Positions 3,298 to 60,023 of a stretch of 64,000 nt of DNA are shown here, one piece after another (the first letter of the stretch is position 1; every line of letters begins with the position of its first letter). Source of the stretch: Phaeodactylum tricornutum CCAP 1055/1 (taxonomy: Eukaryota; Bacillariophyta; Bacillariophyceae; Surirellales; Neidiaceae); assembly GCF_000150955.2 (NCBI RefSeq), contig NC_011675.1:388230-452229 (forward strand), in the 5' to 3' direction. The translations under genes and the position numbers were made by a program. Under the pieces are notes generated by a model that was not told where the DNA came from, ran no database searches, and saw nothing but the letters and a program-made list of their open reading frames with translations.

Positions 3298-4740
3298 TCA
3301 CAGAACGGTCAAGGTTTCGTGCGCAACGGGCGTCTCCGGACGGCTACTAGGGTTTGGATGGAATTCCCGAGACTGCCCGTCGGGAAAGCGCACGACCTTG
3401 GAACCATCGGGCCAGTGTCGTTCGGTTTGTCCGTTGGGGAACTCCCACACGATGGACCCGTCCATTTGGTTAATTTGGAGCGTCTGCAAATTGCTGAAAA
3501 GATAAGCGGTGGAGTCTCGGTGTCGGGTTTCCAAATCTCCGTTGGGATAGCGAATGAGTACGGTCCCGTCAGTGTATTTTTCTTTCTGCGCACCGTTCTG
3601 ATAGTGTGTAACGATGGTTCCGGAAGGGTCCCGGACTGTGCGTCGGTGAGCGGTGCGAGAAGGCGTGGTTTGGACGAACGGAGTAGACGGCATCGAGGGC
3701 TGGGAAGGATGCGTGTTGGGAGATAGGGAAACCCTGGAAGCGGGGGTCTTACCGAGGCCCGGAGTCCACGGTTTGAGGTAGTTTGCAGGGGGAGTTGTCG
3801 AGGGGAAGGATTGGCGGGAGATTTCGGACCGTTCGTCAGTCATGACGGAAACAACGTCGTACGTGCGTGTGGGGGAGATGGATGGTGCGGAAATGTATTG
3901 GGTTGCGGGTGGTAGAGATTGTGGTGGTTGAGTAGGAGCAACTGTCGGTTCGCGAGGGAGTGGGCTGGGCGAGGGCTCGTGCACGTGGGTTGGACCGGTT
4001 TCGTCTCTCGTGGCGGGAAGGGATGGCCCGGACGTGGACCGAGAGAGAACTGCATCGGTGGTGGCTCTACCAGAAGCATTTTCCTTCCCTTTTTGTTGTT
4101 GGGCAGCCAAGAGTTCTTGCTGCAACGCATCAATTCTGTCTTGCTGCTTGCGAACGGTATCGCGCAATTGTTCCTGGATCCGCCAGTGATGTTTCCAGGC
4201 GAGAGGAACATCCCGACGCCAGGTATTCAGTTCACGGGAGAGTTTCCGGATGGTTTCTTCCCGCTCTTGGGCCTCGTGTGCGAGAGCGGCTTGTGCTCGG
4301 GTCCAGCTTTGGACAGCCCGACGCATCCGACGAGCCCACGTACGGGCTTGACTCTCCTCCGGCTTGTCCTCATGGTCGGCTGGCGCCACGACGGGTGGTG
4401 AGGCACTACTCACAGTGTTCCGGATGGGATGATGCGACTTTGTGGTGGTGCTCGATGTGACACTCGTGCGGTCGGGTACGGTTTCACGGGGATGAATAGT
4501 CGTCCGGACGTACGCTGCGTTTCCGGAATGCGGCATCCATGAAAAGGCTTGTAAATCGTCCAAGAGTTGTTCTACCTGCACACTCCAATCATCGTCCTGA
4601 TCGGTGGTGTGCGCACCATTATTGTGGTCTTTGTTGTTGTTGTCGGGGAATGTCGCATCCGACGGTACGGTGATCCGTACCGCAGCACCGTAGGGATCGT
4701 GCGCCGTTCTTCGAATCGTAGAGGATTGGGAGACCGTCAT
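3298..4740 (-). CDS. SAS-4/CPAP-like protein with TCP10 (G-box) C-terminal domain
   Basis: A 480-residue, single-exon protein. The C-terminal part (about residues 365-470) is a run of short beta repeats with the pattern YxNGxxxxxxxDG, such as YTDGTVLIRYPNGDLE and HWPDGSKVVRFPDG. This is the T-complex protein 10 C-terminal domain (G-box) that marks CENPJ/CPAP/SAS-4 and TCP10. The middle (about 155-220) is a heptad-rich coiled coil with many Q, E, R and L residues; the N-terminal half is low in complexity and rich in S, T and P. In animals and flagellates this domain binds STIL/SAS-5-type partners and helps build centrioles. Human CPAP is nearly three times longer, so this is a reduced form. 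It is divergent from ASPM, 628 bases away. The domain call is confident; a centriole role is uncertain in a pennate diatom. Confidence 0.8.
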   Translation of the reverse strand: MTVSQSSTIRRTAHDPYGAAVRITVPSDATFPDNNNKDHNNGAHTTDQDDDWSVQVEQLLDDLQAFSWMPHSGNAAYVRTTIHPRETVPDRTSVTSSTTTKSHHPIRNTVSSASPPVVAPADHEDKPEESQARTWARRMRRAVQSWTRAQAALAHEAQEREETIRKLSRELNTWRRDVPLAWKHHWRIQEQLRDTVRKQQDRIDALQQELLAAQQQKGKENASGRATTDAVLSRSTSGPSLPATRDETGPTHVHEPSPSPLPREPTVAPTQPPQSLPPATQYISAPSISPTRTYDVVSVMTDERSEISRQSFPSTTPPANYLKPWTPGLGKTPASRVSLSPNTHPSQPSMPSTPFVQTTPSRTAHRRTVRDPSGTIVTHYQNGAQKEKYTDGTVLIRYPNGDLETRHRDSTAYLFSNLQTLQINQMDGSIVWEFPNGQTERHWPDGSKVVRFPDGQSREFHPNPSSRPETPVAHETLTVL

Positions 4741-5368
4741 GAGGCAAACGCAATTCTCTTGTATGTGTTATGGATATGTGTGTGTATAATAGTATGCGTG
4801 GGTAATAGAGTACGTATCTCGGTATCGATAGAGTGAAAAAAGGTGTAACAAACGAATACGAGTGAGGATCATTTTGACGGTGACTACTGGCACCCGGACC
4901 CGCATGATACGCGCACCGTTTGATTACCCCACGGTGGAAGCAGCCACGGTCACCTTACTTTGTCCACGACGCATTGCGGCAAACGCGTGGTTCCTCTACC
5001 GCATCTGTGGGTACTCTGGAAACTGGGCGCGTTCGGGAGAGGGCAACCTCGTTCGGCGCGCGCTTCGTCTAGCAAACAAATATAGTTCGTACCGTAACGA
5101 TATTATACTTAATGCAAAAACGACTATGCGACATAAAGGAAGACTCGTTTCAAATGGTGGCCTTTCTCGAAAAAGCTCGTTCAAACTGGACGAATGGAGT
5201 AGTAGAGCGTGCCCTGCCCCCAGTCGACGATTCGACTCACGATCCCCCACCAGAACGACAACAACGACACCAGCAACAATCTCCCTTTCCTTGTTCCTGT
5301 GTTATAGCGATTCGATTGATCCAAAACCTCATTCGTTCTGGTTCATTCGGAATTATTCTCTTTCTCGA
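4741..5368. promoter_or_regulatory. Shared intergenic region of the SAS-4-like/ASPM divergent pair
   Basis: These 628 bases separate the two start codons and must contain both promoters. The plus-strand frame stays open upstream of the ASPM ATG back to about 4862, but that part has no conserved ASPM sequence and includes AT-rich tracts (for example around 5085-5115), so I treat it as promoter and leader. No specific transcription-factor site can be named with confidence. Confidence 0.5.
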
Positions 5369-8300
5369 ATGATTGGGAATTCCAATCAACAACACGTGGG
5401 GGATTCCCGTCGCGTAGCGCTCGGTACCCGTGTGCCGTTGGGACGACGCGGAACCAAGGACGATGCGAAACCCACTCCCAAGCCGTCGTCGTCGTTGCAC
5501 GTGACGTTCCCGCGAACAACGCCCCTCGATAAGGAAAATGGACACGGAATCCGTCGTGACGGCCGGCCGACAACAACCGCAACGAAGACTAGTACTACTG
5601 GTAGTGGTAGTAGTGCTCGTCTGGATGCCAAGAGCACGACGACGACGACGACTCCACGTGAGGTGAGCTTTCGCAGTGTGCTACGGGCCACCGTTACACC
5701 CCGACGTCCCCACCAAAGTACCGTTCCGTCACGCTTGCCACCGCACACTCCGGCGGTTCCCGCACCCGGACGACACCAGATCGCGACAACGCCGCGGTCA
5801 CTACTCACCAACGAACTCGAGTTACTGGACGGTGACGATACCTTCTTGTGCTCACCAGCCGTCGGGACACCGAGACTGCCTTTACCAACGTTTCACATGC
5901 CGGAAGCGACTCCAGCAATCCAGGAATCGGCAAAAGCGGTTGAGGGTCCCGTACCGTCCATGGAACCCACTAGGTCTACCCAGCACCCGCGTCTCCCACC
6001 CGTAGTTCCGGCTGTCCCGATTTCCGTTCCCAACTCCCAGGCTCCCTCCACCCGACCTCCCGTAGCGGAGCCACGCATGCGTCCACAGGCCAGTCAACAA
6101 CTACCTACCACTAATCGCACAGTTGTATCCCGTGTTGAGGCTCCTCCGCCTTCCACGCAATCGCGCTGGGCCCGGAATCGTCTCTCTACCTACCCGACAC
6201 CTTCGCCGACTCCCTTTACGCCACGAGGCGTCTGTATGGACTTGTCCGACATGTTTCAAGACGCTTCGTTTTCTACTCGCGCCACGGCACACAAAAGTGC
6301 TTCTCGTGCTCACGTGCCGCACTCCGTTACCAGTCGACGCGCCTTGCTCGCCTCCGTCGCCAAACCCACTCCGGCGGATACTTCTCTACTAGACAATGAA
6401 CAGGATCACGACTGGGCTGATCAACAATGTCAGGCTTTTTCTTCCTGGCTCAACTACACCTTTACTCCCTCGGAAGACAAGGACCACGAAGCGGCCTTGG
6501 CGTCGGAAACCACGCACGAAAGGGGTGTCGCCTTACGCACCCTCGTACTACACCAACGCATGGCCCAAGCCCGTCGCTCCGCCCTCGCCCTCTTTCACAC
6601 CGATCCCGTCCTCCAAAAGAGCCGTCAACGATTGTTGCAGGAAATCAGCAAGGGAAAACTACGGATTCGCCCGGACCGGGATTTGGCCGTCAATCTCACG
6701 CTCCGCAACCAAGCCGTCGCACTCTGTTTGTCCTACTCCACACCCTGGCTCCGACTCGGGTTGGAAACATTGTTCGGGGAAAGCATACTGCCGTCCGTAC
6801 CGCACCACTTTTCGCCCCACGGTAACCCTGTCGCCTCGCGCAAGGTGCCCACTACGCGCATGAAAGCGGCGCTCCAGACCTTTTTGATTCAACGCGTCTT
6901 GTCCGACGATCTCGTCCTGGCCAAGTACACCAAAGGACTCTGCAAGGTCCCGTCCGGTAGCTTCGAAACCAAATACCGAGCCGAAATACGCAACCTCGCC
7001 CTGTACCGTCTCTTGCTCCTTTTTCTCTTTCTGGATCGTGCGAAAGAAAATAATCTATTGGACAAGGCACCGCGATTGTTCGCCAAAACGGCCTCGGTCA
7101 AATCGACCCGGGAAGTACTGCTCACGTTTTGCCGCGATTTCTTGTCGTCCGAAGGTGATTTCGTTAAACACTTGTCCCGCATGGGAATCCAAGTGCACTA
7201 CAAGCAAGAACCTGTGGACGAGTTGGATTTCACCATTACCAACCTTGCCGTAGATCTGCGCGACGGAGTGCGCTTGGCACGCTTGCTCGAAATTCTCTCG
7301 CATGCACCGCGCAAGTCGCTTTTGGTGAAACTGCGGTTACCAGCTGTCTCTCGTCTGCAAAAGCTCCACAATGTCGGGCTGGTACTCCGACGTTTTCGGA
7401 ACATGGGGGTGCCCCTGTCGGACGAAGTAGTCGCTCACCATATTGTCGACGGACACCGCGAAATGGTGCTCAAGCTCATGTGGGCTGTGGTTGCCCATTG
7501 TTGTTTGAACGATCTCGTAAACGTTCATGCGGTCGAAGCCGAAATTGCTCGTGTGGAACGCGCCCACCGGCAAGCCGTTGTTTACCAGAATTACGAACCC
7601 GACGTTAAGGTCCCTTCCGTACTGGAAGAGTTGCATTCTCTCCTACTACGCTGGTGCCATGCCGTCTGCTCCACCTTGGGAACGGCGGTCCGGAACCTGA
7701 CGACCGACTTTGCCGACGGCCGTGCCATTTGTCTGTTGATTCACTACTATCACCCCGCACTACTGCGCTTGTCCGAGATTCGACCAACGTCACGTTTTTC
7801 GCCACGATCGCTGACGCAAGTCCGTGCCTTGGAAAATGAAATGTACAATTCACAACTGGCCAACACACGCATGTCCGAGCTGGGTGGTATTCCGAGAATC
7901 GTGCCCGAGTGCGATACGAACAACGTCCCGGAAGCTAAGTCCATGCTACTCTGCCTTTCCTTTCTGTGTTCCCGTCTGTTGGAGTCTAGTACAGAGATCC
8001 GTGCGATTCTTCTCATTCAGAATCGGTACCGCGCCTACCGGAAAGCTCGGTTGCGTCGACGACAACGGGTAGTGGCCCGTTTTTTGTGGCAAGTCTGGCA
8101 GTCGCATAAACATAGATACTACGCCAATCAAGCATTCCACTACGGCCCAGCCGTCCGGATCATCGAACGATTCGTACGAAATGGTAAGGAGAGACTGAGA
8201 GAGCTTTGTCGGCATCGTGTGCTCCGCGAGGATCAGGAGCATGCCGCTGTTTTGCTACAGGTAAGTGTTGCGATTGTTCGCACAAAACTCTTTACTGAAA

Positions 8301-11300
8301 TATATCATTATTTCTAACGCCACTTCTTGTTCAGCGAATTTCACGAGGATTCATGGTCCGCCACGCTGTGATGCCGCTCCATACCCAGCATAAATCGATC
8401 AAGGTCGTACAATGCGCCTGGAGATTTTACTGCGCTGGGCGTATTGTGAGGACGCGCCGAAAGAGACTAGCTTCAGCTTTAAGGCTGCAACATGCGTGGC
8501 ACCACTACCAGGCACAGAAAAGGCGTTCTTCTGATGCAGCGATTAAAATCCAGACTCTATGGCGTACTTTTGGGGCCCAGCTCCGTTTCCAGATAGATTT
8601 GATGGATATTTTAACGGTCCAGAGTTGTGCACGGCGCTTTCTGGCGGTGAATGCTCGACGACGACGAGTGTCTGCTATTCTCGTGGTCCAGAGTGTCGGC
8701 CGTCAGTTTTTGGTACGGGTACGATTAATGGACGAGCAAATACGGTATCTTTGTAACCATGCGGCGTGCAAGATTCAGGTACGCGATACACTCCAAGACG
8801 GAAGATTCCCTTGTTTTATTGCTGACCTTTTTCCTTGTTGTTAGGCTGGTATCCGCCGTCTTCTGGCAGTAAAGCGCCGTGAAGGAATGCAGGCGCGACG
8901 CCGGGCAGCGTCTTATATTCAATGCACCTATCGCAAGTTCCAAAGAAGAACGTTCTACAACAGGAGATTTGCCGCCGCGCTTCGGATGCAGACCGCAGCG
9001 CGAAGATGGCATGCACGCAGAAAATTCACTGCACTCAAATTGGCTGCAGTATTTTTACAAACAAGATGGAGATTGACGATTGCCCGACGAATCTATTCAT
9101 CGAACGTCCGCTCAATAGTCATCTGCCAATCTTTGGTTAGATGCTGGCTTGCGAGGCGAAAAGTATTCATGCTTCGATGCGCTGCGGTAGTAATTCAATC
9201 GGCTGTGAGATGTGTCGGTGCCCGACAACGTCTACGGTATTTGCTACGATCCCGTAACGAGCTTTTCCAGGCCTCTGTTACCATTCAAAAGAACTGGAGA
9301 ATGTTCCTGGCTCAGTTGCAGTTTCGGGCGACACTTCGTGGTGTGCTGCGTCTGCAGGCACTCGTCAGAAAGCGAATGGCCGTGAACTCGTATGTTTCCA
9401 TAGTATTGGCAATTGTGCAAGCCCAGGCGGCCGCTCGTCGATTCCTCGCCCTGCGGCAACGCGACTACACGCAGAATGCTCTGTTGTGCTTGCAACGTTT
9501 TGCAAAAAGGATTATTTCTAGGGGAAAAGCCAGGGCTGCTCATGGGATGCTGACAAAGTATACGACTGCTGCCACCATCTTGCAACGACACTGGCGAGGA
9601 TTTTCGACGTTTATAAAATACCGTCTAGTTCTATTGGACATTGTCAATTTACAAAAGGCGGCACGGAGATGGGGAGCTATTCGAATTGCTAATCGCAGAC
9701 GAAATGCGACTGGAATAATGCAGCTGAGCGTCCGGAACTTTCTTGTTCGCCAACGGTGGCAACGATACAGAAAAGCTTTAGCTTGCAAGCGAGTCCGCGA
9801 GAATGCGGCCGTTACCCAAATGCAAGCTGTGTTCCGAGCATTCTTAATTCGACGCGAGTTGCAGCTTCTCTCCAAGTGCGCCGTCGCCATCCAAACCCAA
9901 TACAGAGCTTACCAAGGACGACTTTCTTTTCTCACAGATATACTTGACATTGTTCTCGTCCAAGCGATTATTCGTCGACGGGCCTGTAGGTCTAGCTTCC
10001 TCCACCTGAAGGCGTCTGCAGAATGCATCCAACGTTCGCAGCGCATTTGCGCAGCCAACGATACGCTTGCCAGTCTAAAGCGTTCAAGAAACGAGTGTTT
10101 TGCTGCTTTGACAATTCAAAGCGCATGCCGTCGCTACGCTGCGTGGAAAATGATGGGACTTTTCAGACAGCAAGTCGCTATTTTGAAAATCCAAAGAGTT
10201 TTTCGCGGAAGTCAATGTAGGCAAATTGCCTGTTTTATGCGAGAGAGTTTGCGAAGTAAGAGGTCAGCTATACTGCTGCAGTCTGTCTACCGGAGTTATT
10301 TTGCAAGACAGCAGGTTCAATCCAGACATCATGCCAATGAAAGGATTCGTGGCGTATTGCTCCTGCAGCGCTTCATTCGGGGACAAAAAGTAAGGCAAGA
10401 AACTGCCGAAAGATTGACAAAATTGCGACAGAATTATGGTGTTGTTCACATTCAGAAATTGTACCGCGGACGACGAGATCGACGCCTTGCACAGAGAGAG
10501 ATGGCGTCTCGGATGATTCAGAAGACGTGGAGATGCTATTCAGTTCATGTCGACTACATGTTATCATTCTTAGCTGTCATTCATATCCAGAAATCTCTCA
10601 GGCGCAAGCTTGGCGCTCGGATAGCTGCACGTCGATTTGAAGCGTTAGGTGTGCTTCAGCACTTTTTTCGCCAATCACTTTATCAAATGCGAAAACAGCG
10701 TGGTAAGACATGTGCAATCATCATACAAACCACGTTCCGACGAAGGACTGCGATGGCGAAAATGGCTCTCTTATGCAAGGCGGCGACTATTATTCAGCGA
10801 TGGAGTAGAGGCTTTCTTGCCAGGATAAATCTTGACCTCGAGCGTTTTGCAGCCATGGAAATCCAGCGTACCTGGCGGGGCTCCGTCGCGTATCTGAAGT
10901 ATGTATGGATTCTGCTCTCCACGATCAAAATTCAAGCTTCTGTCCGTGCTTTTCAAGCACGCGAGCGTACCGCTAGCATCCGCTTGACACGCAAAAAGCT
11001 TGAGCTGCAACGCAGAGTCTCTGCCTTAAAAATACAGCTCGTCTTCCGCCGTTTCACATTTCGCAAGAGAAAGAGTCGAGCAGCCGATACAATTCGAATG
11101 GCTTTCCGTCTCCACATTTCCAAAAGAGCATTTTCCCGGCTTCGCTATTCGACGATCCTTCTTCAAAGCGCAGTGCGACGACTATTGACTCAACGGAGGC
11201 AGCCAAAGCGAATCCGATCCCAAGCGTCAAGAATTCAACTAGCCAACGAAAGGGCCGAGGCGGATCCAAGGTTGCGTCTCGGTTTCCGCACCCAGGCAGC

Positions 11301-11981
11301 ACTTGAGGCGCTCACCAAAAGCACACGTCTTGCGGAAATTATGATGGCCATTTGTACCTTGGAGACAGCCACTAGGTACTCCGAAAAGTGTTGTATTGCT
11401 TTCGCCCAGGCAGGGGCGCCTGCTACTTTATTTGATCTGATTCGCACATGCAATCGAAGTCTTCCACACGTGGAGCTTCTTCATCGCATTTTGCAGACTA
11501 TGTGGAACGTTGCGAAGTACAAAGGTGCCCTTCCATCTATGGCGACACTGACAGGTGTTGAGGTCTTCCTTGACTTAGTTCAAATGTTTCGGGACAAAGA
11601 TGGTGTGTTTTGCCTAGCCGTTTCGCTTTTAGAACGCGTTGTGCGCCACGGTGCCGAATTCCAGGTAAGCGTGGAACGCTAGTATGTCATATTGCTCATA
11701 TCTTCTTCCCTTACCCCATTCTGCCCCCCTTTTTGAAAATTTAGTTGCATTGTGCCACGCGCGAAAATTTAAAGCGACTAAAGGGTGTTCATTCTTTGTG
11801 CGTGAGAAAGCTGTCCATTGCTGGAGGGCAGCCTTTGAAGGTGTCGAATCGAAGGCAGTCGCTTAGCACACCTTCGGACACAGGATCTCGAAAACGAATA
11901 TATTTCCAAAGCGGCGATGCGCCCGACCTGCTTCGGGGTATTCGCAGGCTTCATAATATCATCCTTCTAGTTCAGCCCTAA
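5369..11981 (+). CDS. ASPM: ASPM/abnormal-spindle protein: two CH domains, IQ-repeat array, ARM-like tail
   Basis: Four exons (5369-8260, 8335-8778, 8845-11664, 11745-11981) join in phase 0 and give about 2130 residues. I place the start at 5369 because sequence before it is unconserved leader. Residues 1-330 are S/T/P-rich. Then comes an ASPM-type core with a WLNYTFTP motif near residue 360, CH1 at about 612-711 (DLRDGVRLARLLEIL) and CH2 at about 750-872 (FADGRAICLLIHYYHP). From about 880 to 1920 runs a long array of IQ-type motifs (IQxxxRxxxxR, VQxxxRR), the expected binding sites for calmodulin light chains. The last 200 residues look like the armadillo-like C-terminus of ASPM. Animal and plant ASPM proteins act at spindle poles, focusing microtubule minus ends. 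No ASH domain was recognised at the N-terminus. Exon 4 is short and its acceptor (TTTAG) is predicted. Confidence 0.92.
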
Positions 11982-12518
11982 AGTGGATTAACATTTATTT
12001 TCGATACTTTACCGAGGAAAGATAGTCTCACACTTGTTCAGTGGGAAATAGGAACAGTTGTGCTAAAGGAAGCTGTGTTTCGGGGTCTACCCTCAATCGA
12101 ACTGATTCTGAAAATGTTATCTCTATTGATTGTCACAGTCAATGTTATTTTTCACGTCCGTTTCCAGTGCTTTCAAATCTGCTAGACACACGCATGACAG
12201 ACAGTAGCCGTACTGTTAATTTGAACTGATTGGGAACCAATTGACATACCGATGGTTCCAAGCGATCAATGCACAGCTTTGTTTGATGGGGATGAGGTTT
12301 GCTCCTTCAAGATTCCGTCCCTCTGGAGATCCGTCAAATCTCTTCGGAATATTCAGAATTGCATCCGTAGAGAATGCTTGCGATTGACTCTGATTGAGCC
12401 TTTCCCTCCCTTCGTGGATTGTCTCATAGCTGGAGCACAATCAATGCGAATCTGCTCACGGCACAAGAGACCGAAAAAAATCGATCGACATATTCGCTTT
12501 CTGACTTGTACTTTAATA
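11982..12518. other. Intergenic between ASPM and HPPK-DHPS, 537 bases
   Basis: This holds the ASPM 3' UTR and the promoter/leader of the folate gene. The frame upstream of the HPPK start is open back to 12252, but the residues have no family match, so the upstream part is taken as leader. Nothing else was seen. Confidence 0.45.
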
Positions 12519-14232
12519 ATGATGGGAATTTGCACAACATCGGCCCGCCCGCAAGTGTCTTCGGTTGTCCGTTCCTGGAGACTAACAATGGCGTCTGTAT
12601 CATTGGCTGCATCTACGTTCGGAACAGCTGTCGCTTCGGCGCCATTTCTTTCGACTACAAGTGGTGATTCCTTGGTAGCCGCGGCAGCAAAATCGACCAA
12701 TGCGAGATCTTCGGGTGATCGTAAATACCGCGTCTTTTTGGCCGTTGGATCTAATCTTGGTGACCGATACTGTAACATTCGAACAGCGTTACAGCTGTTG
12801 TGCAATTCTTCGGATACCAAGCTGATGCGAACGTCATTTTGGCACGAGACGGCCCCCATGTATGTGACGGATCAACCGTCGTTTTTGAATGGTGCCGTGT
12901 CTTTGGAAACAAATTTGGAGCCACACGATCTTTTACAAACAATTAAGACTATCGAAGCACAGGTTGGTCGAGACTTGAGCGCCATGCGCAACGGCCCCCG
13001 GCCGGTCGACTTGGATATTCTCTTGTACGAAAGACGACTTTCTCCATCAACAGCGAACGCTGAATCGCATGCTTCATGGGAACCACGACTGGTGGACACG
13101 AACGACCTTGTGGTCCCACATTCACGCATCACGGAGCGTGAATTTGTTCTGGCGCCCTTATGTGAGGTAGCAGGGCCTGATCTTGAGCATCCGGTTCGAA
13201 AGACCTCCGTACGAAAGTTATTGGAGGAGTTGCGCCATGAAATGGAGGAAAAATAAGGAACCTACCGTGAGGGTAATCCCACTGCCACGATCTCGTATGC
13301 TTTATTTCAACGAAACCTTAATAATGGGAGTACTGAATGTCACACCCGACAGCTTCAGCGACGGTGGCAAGTGGGAAGACTCGACCAGGAATGCGGTGGA
13401 ACGGGCCTTGGAAATGGAACAGCAAGGAGCTCATATTGTAGATATTGGCGGCGAGTCAACGCGGCCAGGTGCAGATGACGTGTCAGCTGAGGAAGAATTA
13501 CGACGAACTATTCCTGTAATTGAAGGGATTCGTGAAAGTACGTGGGTAGTCACATACATTGCTCGGATATTTAGATTGGCTTCATCCTCACCTTTTTTAT
13601 ACGTTATTCTCTTTTCCTGTTTCCTTCTTGCCACAGGATCAGAGGTTGCTATTTCGATCGACACGCGGAAGTCGGTAGTGGCTAGAGCCGCCGTAAATGC
13701 CGGGGCCGATATAGTCAATGACGTTTCTGGTGGTACGTTTGACGACCTTATGCTGTCTACTGTGGCTGAGCTAGGTGTACCCATTGTATTGATGCATATG
13801 AGAGGTACTCCTAAAACCATGCAATCCATGACGGAGTACGAAGACGTCGTTGCTGATGTTGCTCGAACCCTCATGGAGCGATCGCAAGCAGCGGAATGTG
13901 CAGGTATTCCGCGTTGGATACAAATCCTTGACCCTGGAATCGGCTTTGCAAAAGACCAACGTCAAAATCTTCTCTTGCTAAAAGACATGTTGCGTCTGCG
14001 GGCACTCACGGATGAATTGCCCATATTAATCGGTACAAGTCGAAAAGGTTTCATTGGAAAAATAACTGGTGTAAGCCGAGCTGAAGATAGAGATGTCGGA
14101 AGCGTTGCATCTTTTATATCAGCCCTGTCCTTTGGGTCTCGGTCAAAAAGTTGTGACATTGTCCGGGTTCACAATGTCGAAGCAGCACGGCATGCTGCAT
14201 TGGTCTTAGACGCAATAAAGCAAGTAAGATAG
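12519..14232 (+). CDS. Bifunctional folate enzyme HPPK-DHPS
   Basis: Fusion of 6-hydroxymethyl-dihydropterin pyrophosphokinase and dihydropteroate synthase, two successive steps of folate synthesis. HPPK shows GSNLGDR and GPRPVDLDILLY; DHPS shows NVTPDSFSDGG, the GGESTRPGA motif, DPGIGFAK and GTSRKGFIG. The start is either 12519 or the ATG at 12588 in a good context; both give a short basic, S/A-rich leader suited to mitochondrial import, as in plant enzymes. A 99-nt intron (13538-13636) lies in the DHPS part. The HPPK frame ends at TAA 13254-13256 while the DHPS frame is shifted by one base. A 49-nt GT-AG intron at 13209-13257 would restore one reading frame (521 residues), but so would one base fewer in the A5 run near 13249 (537 residues). 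The latter keeps a normal HPPK C-terminus. The fusion itself is very likely. Confidence 0.85.
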
Positions 14233-20362: not shown

Positions 20363-23300
20363 TTACCAAAGCACTGTTCCACTCAACTCTCTCAATCTCG
20401 GACCTGGGACGCTCTTTGTGAGGAAGTCACTGATGTTTGTTTCGGTTGGTTCCTTTGCAATTAACACAATCCCAGCTGCCTGAGCTTCTCGAGTTCGATG
20501 GTAATTAATAGCATTGTGTTTCCTTTTCAATGCGGTCTCCGGTGCCGTTGAGCTTATAACAACCGATTGGTTATCACATAACACGCAAGTTGGACCATCC
20601 AAACCAACTCCAAGCATTCTCAATTTATACCGTAGCCCTTCTATCATATCAATAGCCGTCCGCATAGCACAGAATTCAGAGGAGTAGGTTGAGGACTCGA
20701 CTGTATTTTGCCGCTTTGAATACCACAGAATTGGTGCTCTGTTCACATATATCAAAACGCCTGTATGCGACCGACGGGTCAACCGACATCCGGCATGGTC
20801 GGCATCCACAAAACATGTAGTTGATACCAACCTGCCTCGTTGTTCCGGTAGGTTTGGCGGTATCGCCTCTGCCGCTCCCGGATAAAATTCTGACCAATCC
20901 TTCTGAACAAATCGTTCCGCATCAAATGTAGGTCTAGTATCATCAAACACCAATGTAGACCGTTTGTGAGACTTCAGGTAAGCAAATATATGAAATAGCT
21001 GCTGTAGCTGTCCTTCCCGTGGTATCACGAGGAATCTAGACATCATCGCAACATCAACCAGGATATCAATTCGTCCCAGCTCACACATCCAACGAAGAAC
21101 TCCAATGAGGCCTTGATAGTAAGTGATTCTCCTTGCATCTAACTCAGGACTCTGGTCTAGTTCCGGTCTGTAACCGGGCTTGAGTGGCGTTGACGCCTTC
21201 GAAGGAAGTTGCTTGTCAATCTTGGCCAACTCTGTTTCAACATCTGCAATTGCCGACTTGATGTAGGTTTCAGATGACATTGCCCATCGAATTTTCGTAG
21301 GATCATCCGATCCTTCAATACGCCATTTCTTGACTTCAGCACCTAGGTACGTTGTTGGCTCTGCCACTGTACCGTTCTTGAGGGTATTTTTGGACTCGAG
21401 AAAGTCCATTGTACGTTTGGGGTCATGGCTCACGACGAGAATGTCGTCTGAGTACACGAGGACGTACTCCCAGTACTTGAATCCGTCAGGCTTCGTTGCG
21501 GGTCTCATCCAAACATCTGGGTCGGCTCTGCTACTAGTATAGTCTGCTTCGCGCAATGTTGCGGCCATATGGTCACGCCATCGTGCTCCGCTACTTTTCA
21601 ATCCGTAAAGTGCGCGAACAATAACGACGGGTCGTCCTGCGTTCGATCCGAACTCCTTCCCAGCGCGCGTCCAAACTTTCTCTTTTGTCGCTGCGTTCAA
21701 GTATGCGTTCTGTACGTCAGCCGCTAAAATGTCTAGATCGTTCAAAGCCGCCAATAGGAAAGCAATTCTCACACTGTCCCGAGATACGACACTTGCAAAA
21801 GTCATATCCTTAGGAGGATCTGTTGTATGACCACCAGCCACCAGGCGCGCCTTACGCTGTAATGAGAACGCCTTGATATCAAAAATCATGTGACAGGTGA
21901 TTTCTTTGTGGCCGACGGGCATACGGTCATCGTCGCGAAATTCAAACGCAGGCATCACATTTTTCATTTCTTTCGCAATTCCATCGCGCCAGAAAGTGGT
22001 CCCCGTTTCTTTATTGATTCGAAGGGCTTCCCCCACAGAGTGAGGTAATTCAATTCCATATTTGTGCGAGCGCTTCCAATATTTCGACTTCACCTTTTTA
22101 ATGGATCTGTCTCTCACACGAAGTGCTTGTCGCACCCACCAAGCAAACGCAGGTTCTTCCGCAATTTTATTTGCGACTGCATACTCAGCGACTTCCAACG
22201 GGTTCGACTCTTTCAGGTCTTTAAGAGGGACCCAAGTCGAAGTACCGTCTTTCCACAGTACTGAAAGCTTCCAGCCTTTTGTGGTCATTTGGGGTTTTCG
22301 TTCGCCATTTTTCAGTACAGTGAAGCCGTCGTCCTTGGTCACTGCATTTCCGTCGACTTTATGGTCGGTGATCTCCTGCATCAGGAGAAACTCGCGGCCT
22401 TCATCGTCAATCTGGGAATACATGTTTTCAGCAATGATGTTAGCAGAATAAACATTTGTGGATCCATCTGGGAGTTCGACTTCATACTCGCGGGTGTCTA
22501 GAATTGGGTTGCTGTTCCGAGTCCCCAGAGGGTTTCCGTCGGCATCGCGCTTCCGAGCTTTAACCACCCCACGTAACAATTCACCACCAAATGGAAGTAA
22601 AACTTCAGCTGTCAGGTACTCGTCCATGGATTCGGGCGTAAAATCATCAGCTTCGGCTTTTTCAGCAGCCTCTTCGAGCGGATAAAACTCTTTGTTGGCT
22701 ACCTTTTCAAATAAATCGTCAGCTGGACCCGACACCAGGTTGCCGAGCGAGCTGTCAATTTCTTTGTTCTGTTCTGCAGTTTTGTTATTGCCAATTTTAT
22801 TGTCAATGGACAAGTCTAACATGGCAAGATCAGCTTTAAACTCGTCCGTGCAGGACACATCAGGGTCAACTCGAGCTACCAAGGAACGCGCAATTGGGGA
22901 GCAGGACTTTGGTAAAATCCAAAAGGTCATGGCCTGCCCCACATCCGATGCAACCCCAATCCAACGACCAAGCTTTCGCTTAGGTTCCGGGAAAGAAGAG
23001 GTCGGATCAATGAACCATACTGGTTCATACCAGTCAAATTGTGCGTATTCTGAAATGTCTGGGGTCTCCCCCTCCAGAAGTTCCGTTGCGACGCGGCCGT
23101 TCAAAGCAGGCAGGCTAAGGGCTGTCAACCGTCGGACGGCCGACACCCATTCCGTACAGAAGCACCAAAGTCGTTTTGGTGCTCGGGATGCTTGTAAACG
23201 GTGGCGAACAGATTTCTTAATCTCTCGGATTTCCCCCTCAGCTCGATTCTGCCACTGACTGTGTGGTTCCGTTACGTGCCGTTGTATGTGATGGCGTTGT

Positions 23301-24613
23301 TCAATCTCACGCCAATGCTTGCCACCTCCCTGCTCTTTAGACCCATCATAAACAAGGTCACTCATTACCCCGACGTCCTGGATCCATTTCATGAGGGCAT
23401 CCGGGGCATTCTGCTTGGATTGCAGAGGGTAAACGCGCGAATAGGCAGTGTTTGTGGTAAAAACCTGGGCACACTTGTACTGACGAATGGAAGTAACGGA
23501 GGAAAACATAGTGTCTGTGTAAACCTTTGTCCGAATGGTAGGGAATCGCAGATGAGACTGCCGGGTCCGGTACCGTCGAGTCAAAGGGTGCAACACAGTT
23601 CTCACGCCTTTCTGTGTTGTTACTTGCAGGGTCCGTTTGGCCGAATCTAAGCCAATATTCCATCGTCGCGACAAAACCTCAGGAGTCAACGCTGACTTTC
23701 GTTCGCTTGACGTCATACCGGAGACAACTCTTATGAAGTCGTCTGAAGCTGGGTATACGTCCGGATCAGCACGTCCGTCCAACCCGTCTCCACAGTGGTC
23801 GTCCGAAGCGACATTAACGCAAGCAATTAAGCGGTCCACCAATTTGGTCTCACAAAATTCAATTTCGGTTAGGGACCGAAATGTTTCGAGTACTCGTTGG
23901 GCAGCTGCAACAGTCCGAGTGTCACTCGGGTATGCTATGTAATGCACCTGGCCAGTGGAATTTCCCCCAGAGTCCACCAAAGATACGCGACGGTCACTTC
24001 TGACGGCCTCTTGCTCTCGATTGGCAAATTCAACCGAGCATGGCTCCCACGGCGCATCGGAGGTGAGTACAATATGCTCACACTCGTCCATTTCCTGTTG
24101 CGTGGGTTTCCGCGATTCCAAAAACAAGAATATACCGCGCAGCTGCAGCGGAATCCGTAAGTTAGAATCAGGAACATATAAGGAGTGTTGAGAGCCGGCA
24201 ACATACTGCCGAGGGGCATCGTCGACTTCAATACCGTAATCTCGCATCTGGTTTGGGGTGAGTAGTGTGTTCTTCAATCGGTCCCCAAAGTAGAGAGCCT
24301 GATTAATGATTAGAATCACCACTCGTCCATCATCTGGTACCGTGTAGGCCGTAGCGACCGTTCCAATAGGAATATTTGTCATTGCTAAGTATTCCCCCGA
24401 AAAAGGTCGAACGGTAACGGACTTTTGCGAGTCACTAATGAGGATAGTGTTAGCCCCAGCAACGCATGTGTCCGCATGGGAATCCAATTCGCATCTAGCT
24501 CCAATGTGGTGATTCGAGCCTGAATTGACATCCCCAATACTGCGTGTAGAGGTGAGGGCAACTATTTCTCTGTCCGGTGCCTTGCGTATTTCAGTCCCCA
24601 AAACGCAAGCCAC
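20363..24613 (-). CDS. CoDi pol polyprotein (PR-INT-RT-RH)
   Basis: About 1,416 codons. The aspartic protease motif (DSHADTC) lies near the N-terminus. An integrase core and C-terminal region follow, then a segment around 22120-22320 that resembles a chromodomain (LWKDGTSTWVPLKDLKESNP). Next is the reverse transcriptase with the catalytic YSDDI box, and an RNase H with the ADHAG and SSEF motifs. This order is diagnostic for Ty1/copia. The frame appears whole. Confidence 0.93.
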   Translation of the reverse strand: MACVLGTEIRKAPDREIVALTSTRSIGDVNSGSNHHIGARCELDSHADTCVAGANTILISDSQKSVTVRPFSGEYLAMTNIPIGTVATAYTVPDDGRVVILIINQALYFGDRLKNTLLTPNQMRDYGIEVDDAPRQYVAGSQHSLYVPDSNLRIPLQLRGIFLFLESRKPTQQEMDECEHIVLTSDAPWEPCSVEFANREQEAVRSDRRVSLVDSGGNSTGQVHYIAYPSDTRTVAAAQRVLETFRSLTEIEFCETKLVDRLIACVNVASDDHCGDGLDGRADPDVYPASDDFIRVVSGMTSSERKSALTPEVLSRRWNIGLDSAKRTLQVTTQKGVRTVLHPLTRRYRTRQSHLRFPTIRTKVYTDTMFSSVTSIRQYKCAQVFTTNTAYSRVYPLQSKQNAPDALMKWIQDVGVMSDLVYDGSKEQGGGKHWREIEQRHHIQRHVTEPHSQWQNRAEGEIREIKKSVRHRLQASRAPKRLWCFCTEWVSAVRRLTALSLPALNGRVATELLEGETPDISEYAQFDWYEPVWFIDPTSSFPEPKRKLGRWIGVASDVGQAMTFWILPKSCSPIARSLVARVDPDVSCTDEFKADLAMLDLSIDNKIGNNKTAEQNKEIDSSLGNLVSGPADDLFEKVANKEFYPLEEAAEKAEADDFTPESMDEYLTAEVLLPFGGELLRGVVKARKRDADGNPLGTRNSNPILDTREYEVELPDGSTNVYSANIIAENMYSQIDDEGREFLLMQEITDHKVDGNAVTKDDGFTVLKNGERKPQMTTKGWKLSVLWKDGTSTWVPLKDLKESNPLEVAEYAVANKIAEEPAFAWWVRQALRVRDRSIKKVKSKYWKRSHKYGIELPHSVGEALRINKETGTTFWRDGIAKEMKNVMPAFEFRDDDRMPVGHKEITCHMIFDIKAFSLQRKARLVAGGHTTDPPKDMTFASVVSRDSVRIAFLLAALNDLDILAADVQNAYLNAATKEKVWTRAGKEFGSNAGRPVVIVRALYGLKSSGARWRDHMAATLREADYTSSRADPDVWMRPATKPDGFKYWEYVLVYSDDILVVSHDPKRTMDFLESKNTLKNGTVAEPTTYLGAEVKKWRIEGSDDPTKIRWAMSSETYIKSAIADVETELAKIDKQLPSKASTPLKPGYRPELDQSPELDARRITYYQGLIGVLRWMCELGRIDILVDVAMMSRFLVIPREGQLQQLFHIFAYLKSHKRSTLVFDDTRPTFDAERFVQKDWSEFYPGAAEAIPPNLPEQRGRLVSTTCFVDADHAGCRLTRRSHTGVLIYVNRAPILWYSKRQNTVESSTYSSEFCAMRTAIDMIEGLRYKLRMLGVGLDGPTCVLCDNQSVVISSTAPETALKRKHNAINYHRTREAQAAGIVLIAKEPTETNISDFLTKSVPGPRLRELSGTVLW

Positions 24614-30777: not shown

Positions 30778-33234
30778 ATGCTAGCCTCGCGCCGAGCATT
30801 TGCACATTCCATCGTCGTGACCCGACGAGTCGGTCCTCATGGGGCTGGAAGCAGTGTTGGGAGACTCCCGGTCGGTCGCGTGGGTACAGCGTCGTCTTGG
30901 TTCCCGGGAGACCGCGACTGCACCGTCGCGACGATCACGATGACGACCCATACCGCCAAACGATTCCTCTCCAAGGCGACAGCGGTCTCGTCCGACCCTT
31001 CCACCGGCACACCAACGCAAAGTACTCCGCCCATCAAAGAGACCGGGTCCAGCAAACCCTTCGTGTCCACCACGGAGCGCAAGTACGAATTCTTTACCAA
31101 CGTCGAAATCACGCCCCGAGAGCACGTCGCTATTGTTCGCTTTGATTGCCCCAAATCCGTTAATTCCATCAGCTTTGCCATGGCGGAAGAAGCCAAGAAA
31201 CTCTGGAAGGACGAAATTGCGTCCAACAGCGACGTGAAAGCCGTCGTATTCTCGTCCGCGAAACCCGACATGTTCATTGCCGGCGCCGATATCTTTGACA
31301 TTAAAGCCGTCGAGAATAAGCAGGACCTGATTCCCTTTATCGCCGACGGTGTGAAATTCTTTCAAGACATGCGAGGCAAGGGTGTCCCTCTCGTGGCCGC
31401 CATCGACGGACCCGCCCTCGGTGGTGGTCTGGAATGGGCGCTCTGGTGCGACTACCGTATTTGCACGGACAGTTCCAAGACCAAAATGGGACTTCCCGAA
31501 GTAAAGCTCGGGCTTTTGCCCGGTTTCGGCGGCACGCAGAACTTGCATCCCGTCGTGGGCTTGCAAAACGCCATGGATATGATGTTGACGGGGAAGGATA
31601 TACGTCCGCACCAGGCCAAAAAAATGGGCTTGGTGGACCTGGTTGTGGCGCAGGCCTCCTTGGAACGTGTCGCGATTGATTCGGCGGCTGCTCTGGCCAA
31701 CGGATCGCTCAAAGCCAAGCGCAAATCCAAATCTATGTTTAACAAGATCCTCGAAGACAACTCGATCGGGCGCAACGTCATTTGGAACCAAATTGACAAA
31801 ATGGTGCAAAAGAACACCAACGGCAAGTACCCGGCACCCTACGCCATTATCGATTGCGTCAAATTCGGTTTAGACAATCCCTCACAAAAGTACCAGCATG
31901 AACGTGAGGAATTCGCTAAACTCGCCGCGACGCCGGAATCGGAAGCACTTATTGGTATTTTCGACGGCATGACGCAGATGAAAAAGCACTCGTTCGGTGC
32001 TGATGCCGCCATTCCGGTCAAGACCGTGGCTGTCATGGGTGCGGGGTTGATGGGAGCCGGGATTGCCCAAGTAACGGCAGAAAAGGGGATCAAAGTCCTA
32101 CTCAAAGACCGCAACGACGAAGCAGTCGGTCGGGGTCAATCCTACATGACGGAGAATTGGAGCAAAAAGCTCAAACGCAAGCGCATGACACAGTATCAGT
32201 ACAACCTGAATACTTCCAACGTCACTGCACTCACCGATGATAGTCCGACTTGGCAACGTCATTTCGGAAATGCTGACATGGTGATTGAAGCCGTGTTCGA
32301 AGATTTGGATCTCAAACGCAAGATTGTCGCCAACGTCGAATCCGTCACCAAGGATCACTGTATTTTTGCCACCAATACATCCGCCATTCCTATCGCCGAT
32401 ATTGCGCAGGGCGCTTCGCGTCCGGAAAACATCATCGGTATGCACTACTTCTCACCGGTACCATCCATGCCCTTACTCGAGATTATTCCACATACCGGTA
32501 CGAGTGATACCGCTACGGCGACCGCTTTCGAAATTGGTTCAAAGCAAGGCAAAACCTGCATTGTGGTCAAGGATGTCCCCGGCTTTTACGTGAATCGCTG
32601 TTTGGGTCCGTATTTGGTCGAAGTGTCGGCGCTCGTTCGGGACGGTGTACCGCTCGAGGCACTCGATAAGTCGCTCAAGAATTTCGGCATGCCGGTGGGC
32701 CCCATAACACTAGCCGACGAAGTCGGTATTGACGTGAGTTCGCACGTGGCCAAGTTCTTGTCCAATGCCGACCTGGGAGTACGCATGGAGGGTGGTGACG
32801 TCTCTCTGATGGAGCAAATGATTGGCAAAGGATGGCTGGGCAAAAAGTCTGGTCAAGGGTTCTACACCTACAAAGGCAAGAAAAAGACCATCAACGAGGA
32901 AGTACAAAAGTACGTCAAGGACTTTGCCACACGCGACTTGAAATTAGACGAGAAGGAAATCCAAGATCGCATCGTGAGTCGCTTTGTGAACGAAGCGGCC
33001 AAATGCTTGGAAGACGAGATCATTGAAAATCCTGTCGTTGGTGACATTGGTCTGGTGTTCGGTACAGGCTTTGCCCCCTTCCGGGGTGGTCCGTTCCGGT
33101 ACCTAGATCAGGTCGGCGTCGCATCGTACGTAGATCGCATGAACACGTTCACCGACAAGTACGGTCCGCAATTCGAACCGTGTCAACTACTGAAGGATTA
33201 TGCCGCAACGGACAAAAAGTTTCACAAACGGTAG
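30778..33234 (+). CDS. Mitochondrial trifunctional enzyme alpha subunit (enoyl-CoA hydratase / 3-hydroxyacyl-CoA dehydrogenase)
   Basis: An intronless gene of 818 residues, with the start at 30778 giving a basic, R/S-rich presequence of about 90 residues that suits mitochondrial import. The hydratase domain carries the oxyanion loops IAGAD and DGPALGGGLEWALWCDYR and the LPEVKLGLLPGFGG stretch, supplying both catalytic Glu residues. The dehydrogenase opens with VMGAGLMGAGIAQV (NAD-binding GxGxxG) and has the catalytic HYFSPV His plus the VNRCLGPYL region. A second 3HCDH C-terminal domain ends the protein. This matches HADHA (about 763 residues) and carries steps two and three of long-chain beta-oxidation in the mitochondrion; the beta subunit (thiolase) is not in the window. 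Identification is firm; a bacterial-type FadB reading is less likely given the presequence. Confidence 0.95.
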   Translation: MLASRRAFAHSIVVTRRVGPHGAGSSVGRLPVGRVGTASSWFPGDRDCTVATITMTTHTAKRFLSKATAVSSDPSTGTPTQSTPPIKETGSSKPFVSTTERKYEFFTNVEITPREHVAIVRFDCPKSVNSISFAMAEEAKKLWKDEIASNSDVKAVVFSSAKPDMFIAGADIFDIKAVENKQDLIPFIADGVKFFQDMRGKGVPLVAAIDGPALGGGLEWALWCDYRICTDSSKTKMGLPEVKLGLLPGFGGTQNLHPVVGLQNAMDMMLTGKDIRPHQAKKMGLVDLVVAQASLERVAIDSAAALANGSLKAKRKSKSMFNKILEDNSIGRNVIWNQIDKMVQKNTNGKYPAPYAIIDCVKFGLDNPSQKYQHEREEFAKLAATPESEALIGIFDGMTQMKKHSFGADAAIPVKTVAVMGAGLMGAGIAQVTAEKGIKVLLKDRNDEAVGRGQSYMTENWSKKLKRKRMTQYQYNLNTSNVTALTDDSPTWQRHFGNADMVIEAVFEDLDLKRKIVANVESVTKDHCIFATNTSAIPIADIAQGASRPENIIGMHYFSPVPSMPLLEIIPHTGTSDTATATAFEIGSKQGKTCIVVKDVPGFYVNRCLGPYLVEVSALVRDGVPLEALDKSLKNFGMPVGPITLADEVGIDVSSHVAKFLSNADLGVRMEGGDVSLMEQMIGKGWLGKKSGQGFYTYKGKKKTINEEVQKYVKDFATRDLKLDEKEIQDRIVSRFVNEAAKCLEDEIIENPVVGDIGLVFGTGFAPFRGGPFRYLDQVGVASYVDRMNTFTDKYGPQFEPCQLLKDYAATDKKFHKR

Positions 33235-34102: not shown

Positions 34103-37100
34103 ATGAGCTTCTTCTGGACTTCCTCGATCACAAACGAACCTGAGAATTCCTTGGATACCGGTGTCACTGTCAGCAATTCGAGACCATCGTCATCGCTGCA
34201 ACAGCAGAACAAGAATATAAAGGAACGATTTGGAGGAATCGAGACAGAATCCCGTCAAGTTCCATTCTTGCCTGACGAAAACTTGACTATTGAATCAATA
34301 TACGACTTTTATGTGCATACACTATTCCCTGCTGTGATGAGTTCTTTGCCTTTATTGGGTCGTCGCCTTTTCCATGACACGCAATCGGTACTTCATGATA
34401 GTTTTCAACGTTTTGTAAACTTTATTCTTCCGGACTATTGGACGTCTTCCTCCTCATACTCACATCCGCAGCTACCAAGCTTTCGGCGGATTTGGGAAGA
34501 AAACGCCGCTGACCTGTCCGTTTCCGACTTTTTGCTCCGACATTTCGATACCAACCACGACGGCAAGATATCTCCCGAGGAACTCTTTCACGTGGACGAG
34601 ATGCTACTCTCTCGCATACTACCTCGCTCAGACGAAAGTTGGTGGAGCTGGTTCTCCCGCGAATGGCCCCTGTTGGATTGGAAAGTGGGACTTTTCTTGT
34701 GGCGCACTTTTGGTGGCGTGCTCTTAACCCTGGCCGTTTTATCGATTGTACCGGGACGGTTGCATGGCTGGTCGGCTCGTGTCTTGCGATGGCCCATTCT
34801 CGGACTCACTTACTTTCTCATCGCCGTTGAACTTATGGTCTATATCGTAATTCGCATTTTCATTCGGATTGCCGAATACATAATCGCACGGCCCAAGCAT
34901 CGAGCACTGCGCCAACAAATGGCTAAATCCCAGTCCTATGAAGAGTGGTACGGCTACGCAGAAGATTTGGACAGATCACAGAAACGAGATGTATGGATTC
35001 GACGAATCAAAGATCAAACATCTTTTCACTACAATTGGAGCTTTGTTCAGGACCTCATTCGGGATTTGCGTAACGCTCGCGAGCAAGGCGACTCCATACT
35101 AGCGCTTGCCGTTATTCAACAATGCACGCGGAAAAATGTAGGCGGTATTATGAGCGAAGATTTATTTTCATATACGAATACGGGGGAACCGAAAGCAGTC
35201 GTACGGGAGTTCATCGAGGAAGCTGTCCAAACCTTGCACTGGCTCACTGATGAAGCATTGCATATTCCAGTAGATGATTCCGCACAACAGCAAAGCAACG
35301 AAAAACGCACCTATGAAGAGCAAATGGAAGAAACTGTTCAAGCCGAAAAGGACAAAATATGGAAATCATTGACCAATTTGTTTGGTAATGGCGAAGATGG
35401 AAAACAAAATGACGATGTCAAGACGAAAGATGGAAATGAAACGCATTCGCCGGAATCCGCCCCCCACCAAGACATAGAAAGTCGGACGGATAATCCTTTG
35501 CCATCCTTTCACCGACAAGAGGTTTTAACGTTTTTGAAGCGGGCTCGAGCAGCTTACGGTCGAACCGCTTTGTGCCTGAGCGGTGGAGCGATGATGGGAG
35601 TTTATCATTTTGGACACGTTCGGGCTCTACTGGAAACTGGTTCTCTGCCCAATATTGTACGTACCGGGATCGTGTTTTTAGATCACACACTCGTTACAAA
35701 TAGGAAACTTTGTATTTATGTGCGACAACGCCTGATGTTTGTTTGCTTCTTTTTTGTGAAAAGATTTCAGGAACTAGCGCAGGAAGCATTATTGGTGCGA
35801 TTTTGTGCACCAGGAAGGACGATGAATTGGATCGTGATTTACGCCCAGAAATTTTAGTACATAAGCTTACGTGCTTTTCGCGTCCTTGGAGGGAGAGGAT
35901 CTCTAGCCTTGTCAAAACCGGGAGCATGTTTGATGTCGATGAATGGTTGGAGCTACTGAAATGGTGAGTTACTTGCTGCTGCTTGTTTGCATCCCTATAC
36001 GTCAGGTCGTTCTTGTCTCACCGTCATGTTTATAAGGTTTTGTCGGGGTGATATGACATTTGCTGAAGCATATCGTTTGACAGGGCGCGTTTTTTGTATT
36101 ACTCTATCCCCTACTACGAAGAAGGCGCCGCCGGTGTTGATAAATTATTTGTCTGCGCCCAACGTTACGATAGCCTCTGCTGTCGTAGCGAGTGCAGCTG
36201 TACCTGGGTTTGTTGCGCCTGTTCGCTTGCGTATCAAGGACACCAATGGCGTAGTTCAGAGAGGCGGAGCAAAGGACGAAGCATACTTTGATGGATCGAT
36301 CAAACAAGACATTCCGACTACAGGATTAGCGGAGATGCTCAATTGCCAGTTTTTTGTCACGGCTCAATGCAATCCACATATTGTTCCAATGTTTTACAAC
36401 AGTAAAGGCGGAGTTGGGCGTCCCAGCCGATGGTCCAGTGGAGCACAAGAAGATTCCTGGAGAGGCGGGTTCCTACTGGCCGCGTTGGAGATGTATCTCA
36501 AGAATGACATGAAAGCCAAGTTTGTTTTTCTTCGTGATCTAGAGGCGGCTGTTGGCTTTACATCGGAGCTACTGACGCAAGACTTTGTAGGCACGACAAC
36601 CATCGTACCTCAAGTTTCCTTTAAGGATTATTTCGGAGTAAGGACAAGCGCAAATGAGATGTGTTGCCCAAACAATCGCATGAAAAACTAACTGCTTCTT
36701 TCTGTTCGTTCGTTCGCAGCTCTTTGAGAATCCGTCTTTGGAGCAACTCCAGCGGTGCTGTCATGCAGGATCTGTTGCTGCGTACGAACATACTGTTATG
36801 ATCCAGATGCATTACAGCATTTCGGATGCACTGGAGGAATGCATTGCAAAGCTTGAAACCAATAAGCGCAAAGTACATATTCGGCGACGTACAAAGCTAG
36901 GATCGGCGAGTATGACGAGAGGCGATCCAAAGGGAGGGGTCGTGGAGGAATCAACGGAAGCGCGAATCCAGCCAACAGTGGAAAATACCCAGACGTTTCT
37001 GGTCGGTGGGTTGACATCAGACGGACTGAAAGTACGTACAGCGTTCAATGAATCATCGGATGATACAGATCGAGAATCGGAGTACGATGAGTTCGAAGCT

Positions 37101-58400: not shown

Positions 58401-60023
58401 ATTTTTATATTTAACCCAAGGACTGGTCAGCTCTTTTTGAAAATTATTCACACGAGTGTTTGGGCTGGACAGAAGCGCTTGTCACAACTTGCAAAGTGGA
58501 AGACTGCTGAAGAAGTTGCCGCGCTGATTCGTTCTCTTCCAATCGAAGAGCAGCCGAAACAGATTATTGTTACGCGGAAGGGTATGTTGGATCCCTTAGA
58601 GGTCCATTGCTTGGATTTTCCAAATATCGTGTTGAAAGGCTCAGAGTTGCAGCTACCCTTCCAAGCTGCGCTCAAGGTTGAGAAATTCGGAGACCTTATC
58701 TTACGCGCCACGGAGCCTCAAATGGTGTTGTTTAACATCTATGATGATTGGCTCAAGAGTATTTCGTCGTATACTGCCTTCTCTCGTCTGATTCTGATTC
58801 TCCGGGGCCTTCATGTTCATACTGATAAAGTCAAACAAATTCTCCGACCCGATACCAGCGTTGTAACGGAACCGCATCACGTATGGCCATCCCTGACGGA
58901 CGAGCAATGGATCAAAGTGGAGGTGGCCCTGAAAGACTTGATTCTTGCTGACTACGGAAAGAAGAATAACGTCAATGTTTCGAGTTTGACACAGAGCGAA
59001 ATCCGCGACATTATCCTCGGAATGGAGATTGCGCCTCCTTCTGTTCAGCGCCAACAAGTCGCCGAAATCGAGGCACAAGCTCGTGAACAATCGCAGATGA
59101 CAGCAACCACAACAAAGACGACGAATGTACATGGCGAACAAATCGTTGTCACAACCACTACACAGTACGAGTCAGCGACGTTCCAGAGCAAGACGGATTG
59201 GCGGGTACGCGCAATTAGTGCGACTAATTTGCACCTCCGAACAAAGCATATCTACGTCTCTTCTGAAGACATTTCGGAAGAGGGTCTTACATATGTACTA
59301 CCCAAGAACATTCTTGCCAAATTCATCACGACAGCCGACCTTCGAACTCAGATTGCTGGTTACCTCTATGGAGTGACTCCCCCTGACAACGATCTGGTTC
59401 GCGAAGTACGGTGTATTGTTATGGTTCCACAAATAGGTAACCATCAGAGCGTAACACTACCGAAGAAATTACCTGACAATGATATCCTTAAGGAGCTGGA
59501 ACCACTTGGATGGATTCACACACAGCCGAACGAACTGATTCAGAATGGGGTACAGATACTGCCAGCACCCGACGTTGTGACTCATGCTTCCATCATGGCA
59601 GACAATCCGAACGCGTGGACTGGTGAGAGCGAGATCATTATTACTACGTCCTTCACGCAAGGATCGTGTTCGCTGACAGCTTATCGCGTGACTGAGAATG
59701 GAGTGCAATGGGGTAACAAAAGTCGAAACATTGCTGGTGGCGTAGCGAATGCCGAACAGTACTCGTCCAGTTGTTTTGAAAAGGTGCAAATGCTTCTCAG
59801 TGACCGCTTTAAGGGGTTCTTTATGGTTCCGCAAGGCGGTCTTGGATGGAATTACAACTTTCAGGGGGTGAAACATAGTGCTGGAATGGATTATGAGCTG
59901 AAAATGGACACTCCTGAACCGTTTTACGCAGAGTGCCATCGACCGCAGCACTTCTTGTCATTTGTTCAAATGGAAGACGGAGCGGGCGATGATGGCGCTG
60001 ATCTAGACGACTTCTTGGGCTAG
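52446..60023 (+). CDS. PRP8: PRP8, core spliceosome scaffold of the U5 snRNP
   Basis: One uninterrupted frame of 2,525 residues. The N-terminus (about 1-130) is a P/G/M-rich repeat region with many PPPGM units. The conserved body starts near residue 140 and continues through the PRO8NT and PROCN regions, the reverse-transcriptase-like large domain, the U5- and U6-snRNA-binding regions, the RNase H-like domain IV and the C-terminal JAB1/MPN domain (about 2260-2400, with [12 protein letters not shown] and [11 protein letters not shown]). The family is among the most conserved nuclear proteins, so the identification is certain. PRP8 holds the catalytic RNA core and is regulated through its JAB1 domain by the BRR2 helicase. 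The absence of introns over 7.6 kb contrasts with the nearby RAD50. The C-terminal tail ends in acidic DDFLG instead of the usual animal tail. Confidence 0.98.

Follow-up and report, generated by a model that had tools for sequence, protein, structure and literature searches.

A trimmed protein of the SAS-4 type is retained in the genome of the pennate diatom Phaeodactylum tricornutum, a retention that we regard as real on the evidence of sequence similarity and predicted fold. Its gene stands back to back with a gene of the ASPM type in the stretch of 64,000 nucleotides analysed here (positions 388230-452229 of its contig; hereafter, the window). Both reading frames are intact and, judged by E-values, the domain content of the two genes is far beyond chance. 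The first-pass annotation had placed the pair at 3298-11981, in divergent orientation and with 628 bp between the start codons, all of which is correct; the distance falls to 163 bp if an upstream ATG at 4904 is used for the ASPM-type gene (Table 1). It had also read a TCP10 beta-repeat domain in one gene and CH and IQ domains in the other, and Pfam recovered all three (E = 2.1e-17, 8e-18 and 5.1e-30, respectively). The back-to-back placement suggests that the two may have been kept jointly for cell division.

Table 1 Features of the divergent gene pair, with positions counted from the first nucleotide of the window
Feature	Position	Strand	Basis
TCP10/G-box (SAS-4/CPAP C-terminal-half) gene	3298..4740	-	Intronless ORF, 480 aa; Pfam and solved-structure matches
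G-box (Tcp10_C) beta-repeat region, residues 372-460	3361..3627	-	Pfam, CPAP alignment, structure models
Predicted long helix, residues 128-232; candidate coiled coil	4045..4359	-	Single-sequence AlphaFold2 model
Shared 5' intergenic region, candidate bidirectional promoter	4741..5368	.	628 bp between start codons
Possible in-frame extension of the ASPM-type N-terminus by 155 codons	4904..5368	+	Open frame
E2F-like octamer TTTGCCGC	4976..4983	-	Motif scan; weak
ASPM-type exon 1: N-terminus with prolines and no Pfam match, followed by two CH domains	5369..8260	+	Pfam, PDB search
ASPM-type exon 2: IQ motif(s)	8335..8778	+	Frame joining, Pfam
ASPM-type exon 3: main part of the IQ array, beginning of C-terminal region	8845..11664	+	Pfam IQ 1.1e-31
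ASPM-type exon 4: C-terminus and stop	11745..11981	+	Splice sites by frame; no Pfam match

The Tcp10_C model (PF07202) scores the 480-aa protein at 62.9 bits against a cut-off of 36 bits, and nothing but this ORF (4740-3298) exceeds the cut-off in the genome searched (27.45 Mb; 27,450,724 bases in 88 contigs). Four matches were obtained at E<=10, two further ones in the same gene and one weak match elsewhere (E = 1.1). The best Pfam stretch covers residues 427-459, and the alignment with CPAP spans residues 372-469. Zebrafish CPAP is the top sequence match among solved structures (E = 1.5e-18), which sharpens to 2.6e-22 with the last 126 residues as query; solved structures of fly Sas-4 match the whole protein at 5.1e-12 and 5.9e-12. 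Since the designed proteins Cake and Bagel and the mitochondrial ribosomal protein 7aor_y also match weakly (2.1e-6 to 3.2e-4), the repeat-like resemblance extends past CPAP, but by sequence CPAP stands many orders of magnitude ahead. No relative of the G-box query was confirmed in a viral contig collection, which holds no eukaryotic genomes.

Structure prediction points to the same family. Modelled from the single sequence, the last 126 residues (355-480) form 11 evenly spaced strands (mean pLDDT 71.1, pTM 0.46), and in a Foldseek search of the PDB ranks 1-10 were all CPAP or Sas-4 chains (E = 3.0e-6 to 5.8e-5), with low query-normalised TM-scores of 0.28-0.42; Polo-box domains trail closely, from rank 11 (E = 8.3e-5). 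The model thus agrees with an open single-layer beta-sheet fold, at low TM-scores. This fold search, set beforehand as a refutation test, places the first protein with the SAS-4/TCP10 family, and sequence agrees. The full-length model runs from a long helix (residues 128-232) through an unstructured linker to seven C-terminal strands (mean pLDDT 53.9). Confidence is high along the helix, with pLDDT of 86-98 in 10-residue blocks across residues 131-220, and falls below 50 at 292 of the 480 residues, 325-416 included, so that within the G-box this model exceeds pLDDT 50 only from about residue 417 onward.

How much of SAS-4 is present is a separate question. The C-terminal half of CPAP consists, in order, of a long helix, a linker and the G-box. 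Because helix, linker and strands follow one another in that order in the diatom model, its recognisable parts correspond to that half of CPAP. In the alignment with zebrafish CPAP, 39 of 96 residues are identical and 54 of 96 similar. The diatom protein differs in its length of 480 aa, in that the tubulin-binding domain was not detected, and in its host group, which has no known centrioles. The CPAP tubulin-binding (PN2-3) model PF25779 gave no match in the protein at E<=1 and none in the genome at E<=10; no control genome gave a match either, and a diverged copy is possible. The earlier label 'SAS-4/CPAP-like' therefore holds for the G-box family, by sequence and by fold, and is too strong as a name for a full SAS-4, since only the CPAP C-terminal half is recognisable and the tubulin-binding domain was not detected. 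'G-box protein of the SAS-4 type' is the designation that sequence and model support, and from it we infer SAS-4 descent of the protein as a whole.

A conserved groove for STIL looked appealing by eye. In zebrafish CPAP the reported STIL contacts are F978, Y994, Y996, H1003, T1005, F1015, Q1019 and E1021 (PMC3776556), and the diatom residues at these positions are, in the same order, Y, Y, F, Q, N, F, Q and E. Compared with the CPAP G-box/STIL complex (4bxr), the same kind of sheet is predicted and the four STIL-contact aromatics are still aromatic, whereas H1003 is replaced by Q and T1005 by N, and STIL itself was not found. Four of the eight contacts are identical and six similar, a conservation not above background: eight columns drawn at random reach the same level with P = 0.42 for identity and 0.23 for similarity. 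The groove failed this control and is not counted as evidence here; what remains of it in sequence is compatible with peptide binding, and no more.

The partner gene (5369-11981, + strand) comprises four predicted exons that join in frame into a protein of 2130 aa, the splice sites having been chosen by frame and motif continuity. Its introns, of 74, 66 and 80 bases, are all GT..AG and of phase 0. The CH match falls into two stretches, and a PDB search likewise gave two regions, around residues 620-716 and 755-829. The ORF scan that detected the IQ array was complemented by a per-exon one, in which 10 stretches of exon 3 (E = 1.1e-31) and 1 of exon 2 pass singly. Counted without a shuffle control, the protein has 41 IQ cores of the form [FILVM]Qxxx[RK], of which 38 lie at residue 883 or beyond. 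The order of CH domains, long IQ array and non-IQ C-terminus is shared with ASPM and Asp, and CH followed by IQ is the architecture that a review gives for ASPM (PMC10047693). Unlike these proteins, the diatom protein gave no ASH match (Pfam, E<=1), nor did the genome (PF15780, E<=1, with controls giving matches only below the cut-off), and the non-IQ C-terminus had no Pfam match, an Armadillo-like/HEAT region being confirmed by no model. Used as a genome query, the CH region matches only itself, by which the ASPM-type gene is single-copy. Neither the viral contig nor the genome contig collection, both of which are free of diatom genomes, yielded a confirmed relative of this region.

The start of the ASPM-type gene has two candidates, as its frame is open upstream to the ATG at 4904. 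Two codon-usage tests favoured neither, by a method that also fails on the IQ exons, and the sole Pfam match in the possible extension was to HRM, below cut-off (17 bits against 26.2).

The region between the two genes carries a single E2F-like octamer, TTTGCCGC. About 0.12 such octamers are expected in 628 bp (shuffle mean 12.44 per 64 kb), a weak excess, and 10 were observed across the window against the 12.44 of the shuffles. TTTGAA occurs twice between the genes (TTYGAA 132 times in the window, 129 in shuffles) and CCGTT once; no CCAAT or ATTGG was found in the 628 bp. Motif evidence for a shared promoter is thus weak, and a co-regulated module of the two genes is a plausible proposal. Divergent neighbours occur four times among 30 window ORFs. 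The pair described here is separated by 163 (or 628) bp and the other three by 216, 586 and 1347 bp, all taken by hand as distances between ORFs, which introns could change. A gap of 163-628 bp is therefore ordinary here.

We consider there to be an even chance that the locus holds a reduced, SAS-4/CPAP-descended G-box scaffold and a single-copy ASPM-type protein that were both kept after centriole loss for a role at the spindle pole. The long helix would let the G-box protein oligomerise, and its C-terminal beta-sheet would hold proline-rich motifs of partners at an acentriolar microtubule centre. The CH domains of the ASPM-type protein would bind and organise spindle microtubule ends, with calmodulin-type proteins sitting on the IQ array. 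Location, oligomerisation, binding and co-regulation are what we infer for the two proteins from their domains and arrangement. Weighing against this reading are the undetected tubulin-binding domain, the lack of a match for STIL, which is the ligand in the solved G-box complex, STIL contacts conserved at background level, the low TM-scores and the low confidence of most of the full-length model. The con80 domain of katanin p80, a possible partner of ASPM, also gave no genome match at E<=1, and no control gave one.

Several published observations bear on this reading. ASPM and WDR62 are reported in one review to interact with CENPJ/CPAP in mammals (PMC10047693), and in the partner table of a second ASPM and CPAP are not entered under each other (PMC10340463). 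Fly asp and Sas4 mutants have, according to a 2026 study, common microtubule and nuclear/chromatin defects (PMC13286369). The diatom microtubule centre is described as acentrosomal and amorphous, with GCP2/3, Aurora A and centrins, and ASPM, SAS and CPAP are all absent from the main text of that catalogue (PMC10454807); the genome searched here has gamma-tubulin-complex (GCP) proteins at two loci. Pennate diatom genomes lacked every IFT-A, IFT-B and BBSome gene searched in one study (PMC10328945). Taken together, the CPAP-ASPM review, the fly mutants, the acentrosomal centre and the missing IFT genes make spindle-pole retention the most likely reason for the survival of the G-box protein.

Equally open beside it is that the two genes adjoin by chance, each acting alone and the short gap reflecting a compact genome, which we hold to be just as probable. 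The two are not exclusive, because retention does not require that the adjacency was selected, and chance adjacency is compatible with a separate spindle role for each protein. The adjacency was observed in one genome and by itself carries no statistical weight. Coincidence fits the presence of four divergent ORF pairs in the window, 163-1347 bp apart, and the lack of any spindle family among 21 of the 26 other window ORFs scanned with Pfam. The pair was, moreover, picked out in a reading aimed at notable features, which makes it easy to over-read a coincidence. Against this, the genome has about 12,000 genes, of which perhaps 50 are spindle-pole genes, and from these approximate figures such a neighbour would be expected for one given gene in roughly 1% of cases, before correcting for the search. 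The coincidence would also be a functionally pointed one, because the human counterparts are reported in one review to interact (PMC10047693).

An unlikely reading is that the G-box protein lost its centrosomal role and now serves as a scaffold elsewhere, for instance on frustule-linked microtubules or in a non-microtubule complex. It would account for the tubulin-binding part, STIL and SAS-6 not being detected: the STIL_N model and both SAS-6 models (SAS-6_N, Sas6_CC) gave no match in the genome. As with PF25779, these negatives are no proof of absence because no control genome gave a match; the same kind of search found the GCP proteins at their two loci. The weak match of the G-box-like repeats to 7aor_y would also fit a scaffold of another kind, but the order of helix and G-box is kept in the model and no alternative partner was seen. 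Very improbable indeed is that the species still builds centrioles, cryptically or only at certain stages, with the protein acting as an ordinary SAS-4: the gene is kept intact, and Plasmodium SAS4, reported as a male-cell basal-body part, is not expressed in blood stages (PMC9098390), but the SAS-6_N, Sas6_CC, STIL_N and CPAP tubulin-binding models match nothing (nor in any control genome), the one IFT57 match lies far below cut-off (13.7 against 40 bits), and the IFT genes sought in pennates by one study were lacking (PMC10328945).

Spindle-pole retention has an extension in which the G-box would directly bind the ASPM-type protein encoded next to it, at PRxxP sites of the N-terminus. Residues 1-360 of that protein contain three such sites against a shuffle mean of 0.62, and 2.5% of shuffles reach three; in 20 of the 26 other window ORFs, not matched in composition, two occur in 10,453 aa. 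This excess is a lead only, because the test was conceived after reading the sequence, and is post hoc and weak; the longer motif PRxxPxP was found in neither the G-box nor the ASPM-type protein. A stripped SAS-4, with helix and G-box and no tubulin-binding part, that docks on proline-rich sites of a divergently co-transcribed ASPM as a centriole-free spindle-pole module is quite doubtful in our estimation. If such a module were true, the CPAP-ASPM link reported in mammals would predate centriole building and could be separated from it.

Basal-body biogenesis is reported to count SAS-4 among its ancestral core proteins (PMC9098390). A G-box protein kept by a lineage with no record of flagella offers a natural test of those SAS-4 functions that need no centriole. 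Few parts of the diatom microtubule centre have been named so far. Centric diatoms, to which Thalassiosira belongs, have flagellated sperm. Gene removal and tagging are possible in P. tricornutum. Among the literature matches listed (titles and abstract starts), no description of a Phaeodactylum SAS-4/CPAP or ASPM gene was found, and an earlier description is possible; Hodges 2010 and Carvalho-Santos 2010 reportedly deal with the distribution of centriole genes.

Among the 21 scanned ORFs elsewhere in the window, 16 match metabolic, splicing, PPR, helicase-associated, AAA_23, reverse-transcriptase or similar families, and five have no Pfam match. PRP8 and SART-1 are tri-snRNP splicing factors; the genes for PRP8 (52446-60023, +) and a SART-1 protein (62054-63676, -) lie close together with one ORF (60815-61966) between them, and form another functionally related near-neighbour pair in the window. 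HPPK and DHPS domains occur at 12252-14232 (+) in two ORFs of different frames with a 20-nt overlap, which are probably one spliced bifunctional folate gene. An AMP-binding (acyl-CoA ligase-like) ORF (1237-2214), a hydratase/dehydrogenase (30778-33234), a patatin/DUF3336 ORF (34103-36691) and an acyl-CoA oxidase (47129-49396) are, by their predicted domains, apparent fatty-acid breakdown genes within 49 kb. A retroelement reverse-transcriptase ORF (RVT_2, copia-type, 1339 aa) is located at 20363-24382 (-), and a 539-aa ORF with an AAA_23 domain (9.5e-19), possibly SMC/RecF-like, at 40631-42250 (-).
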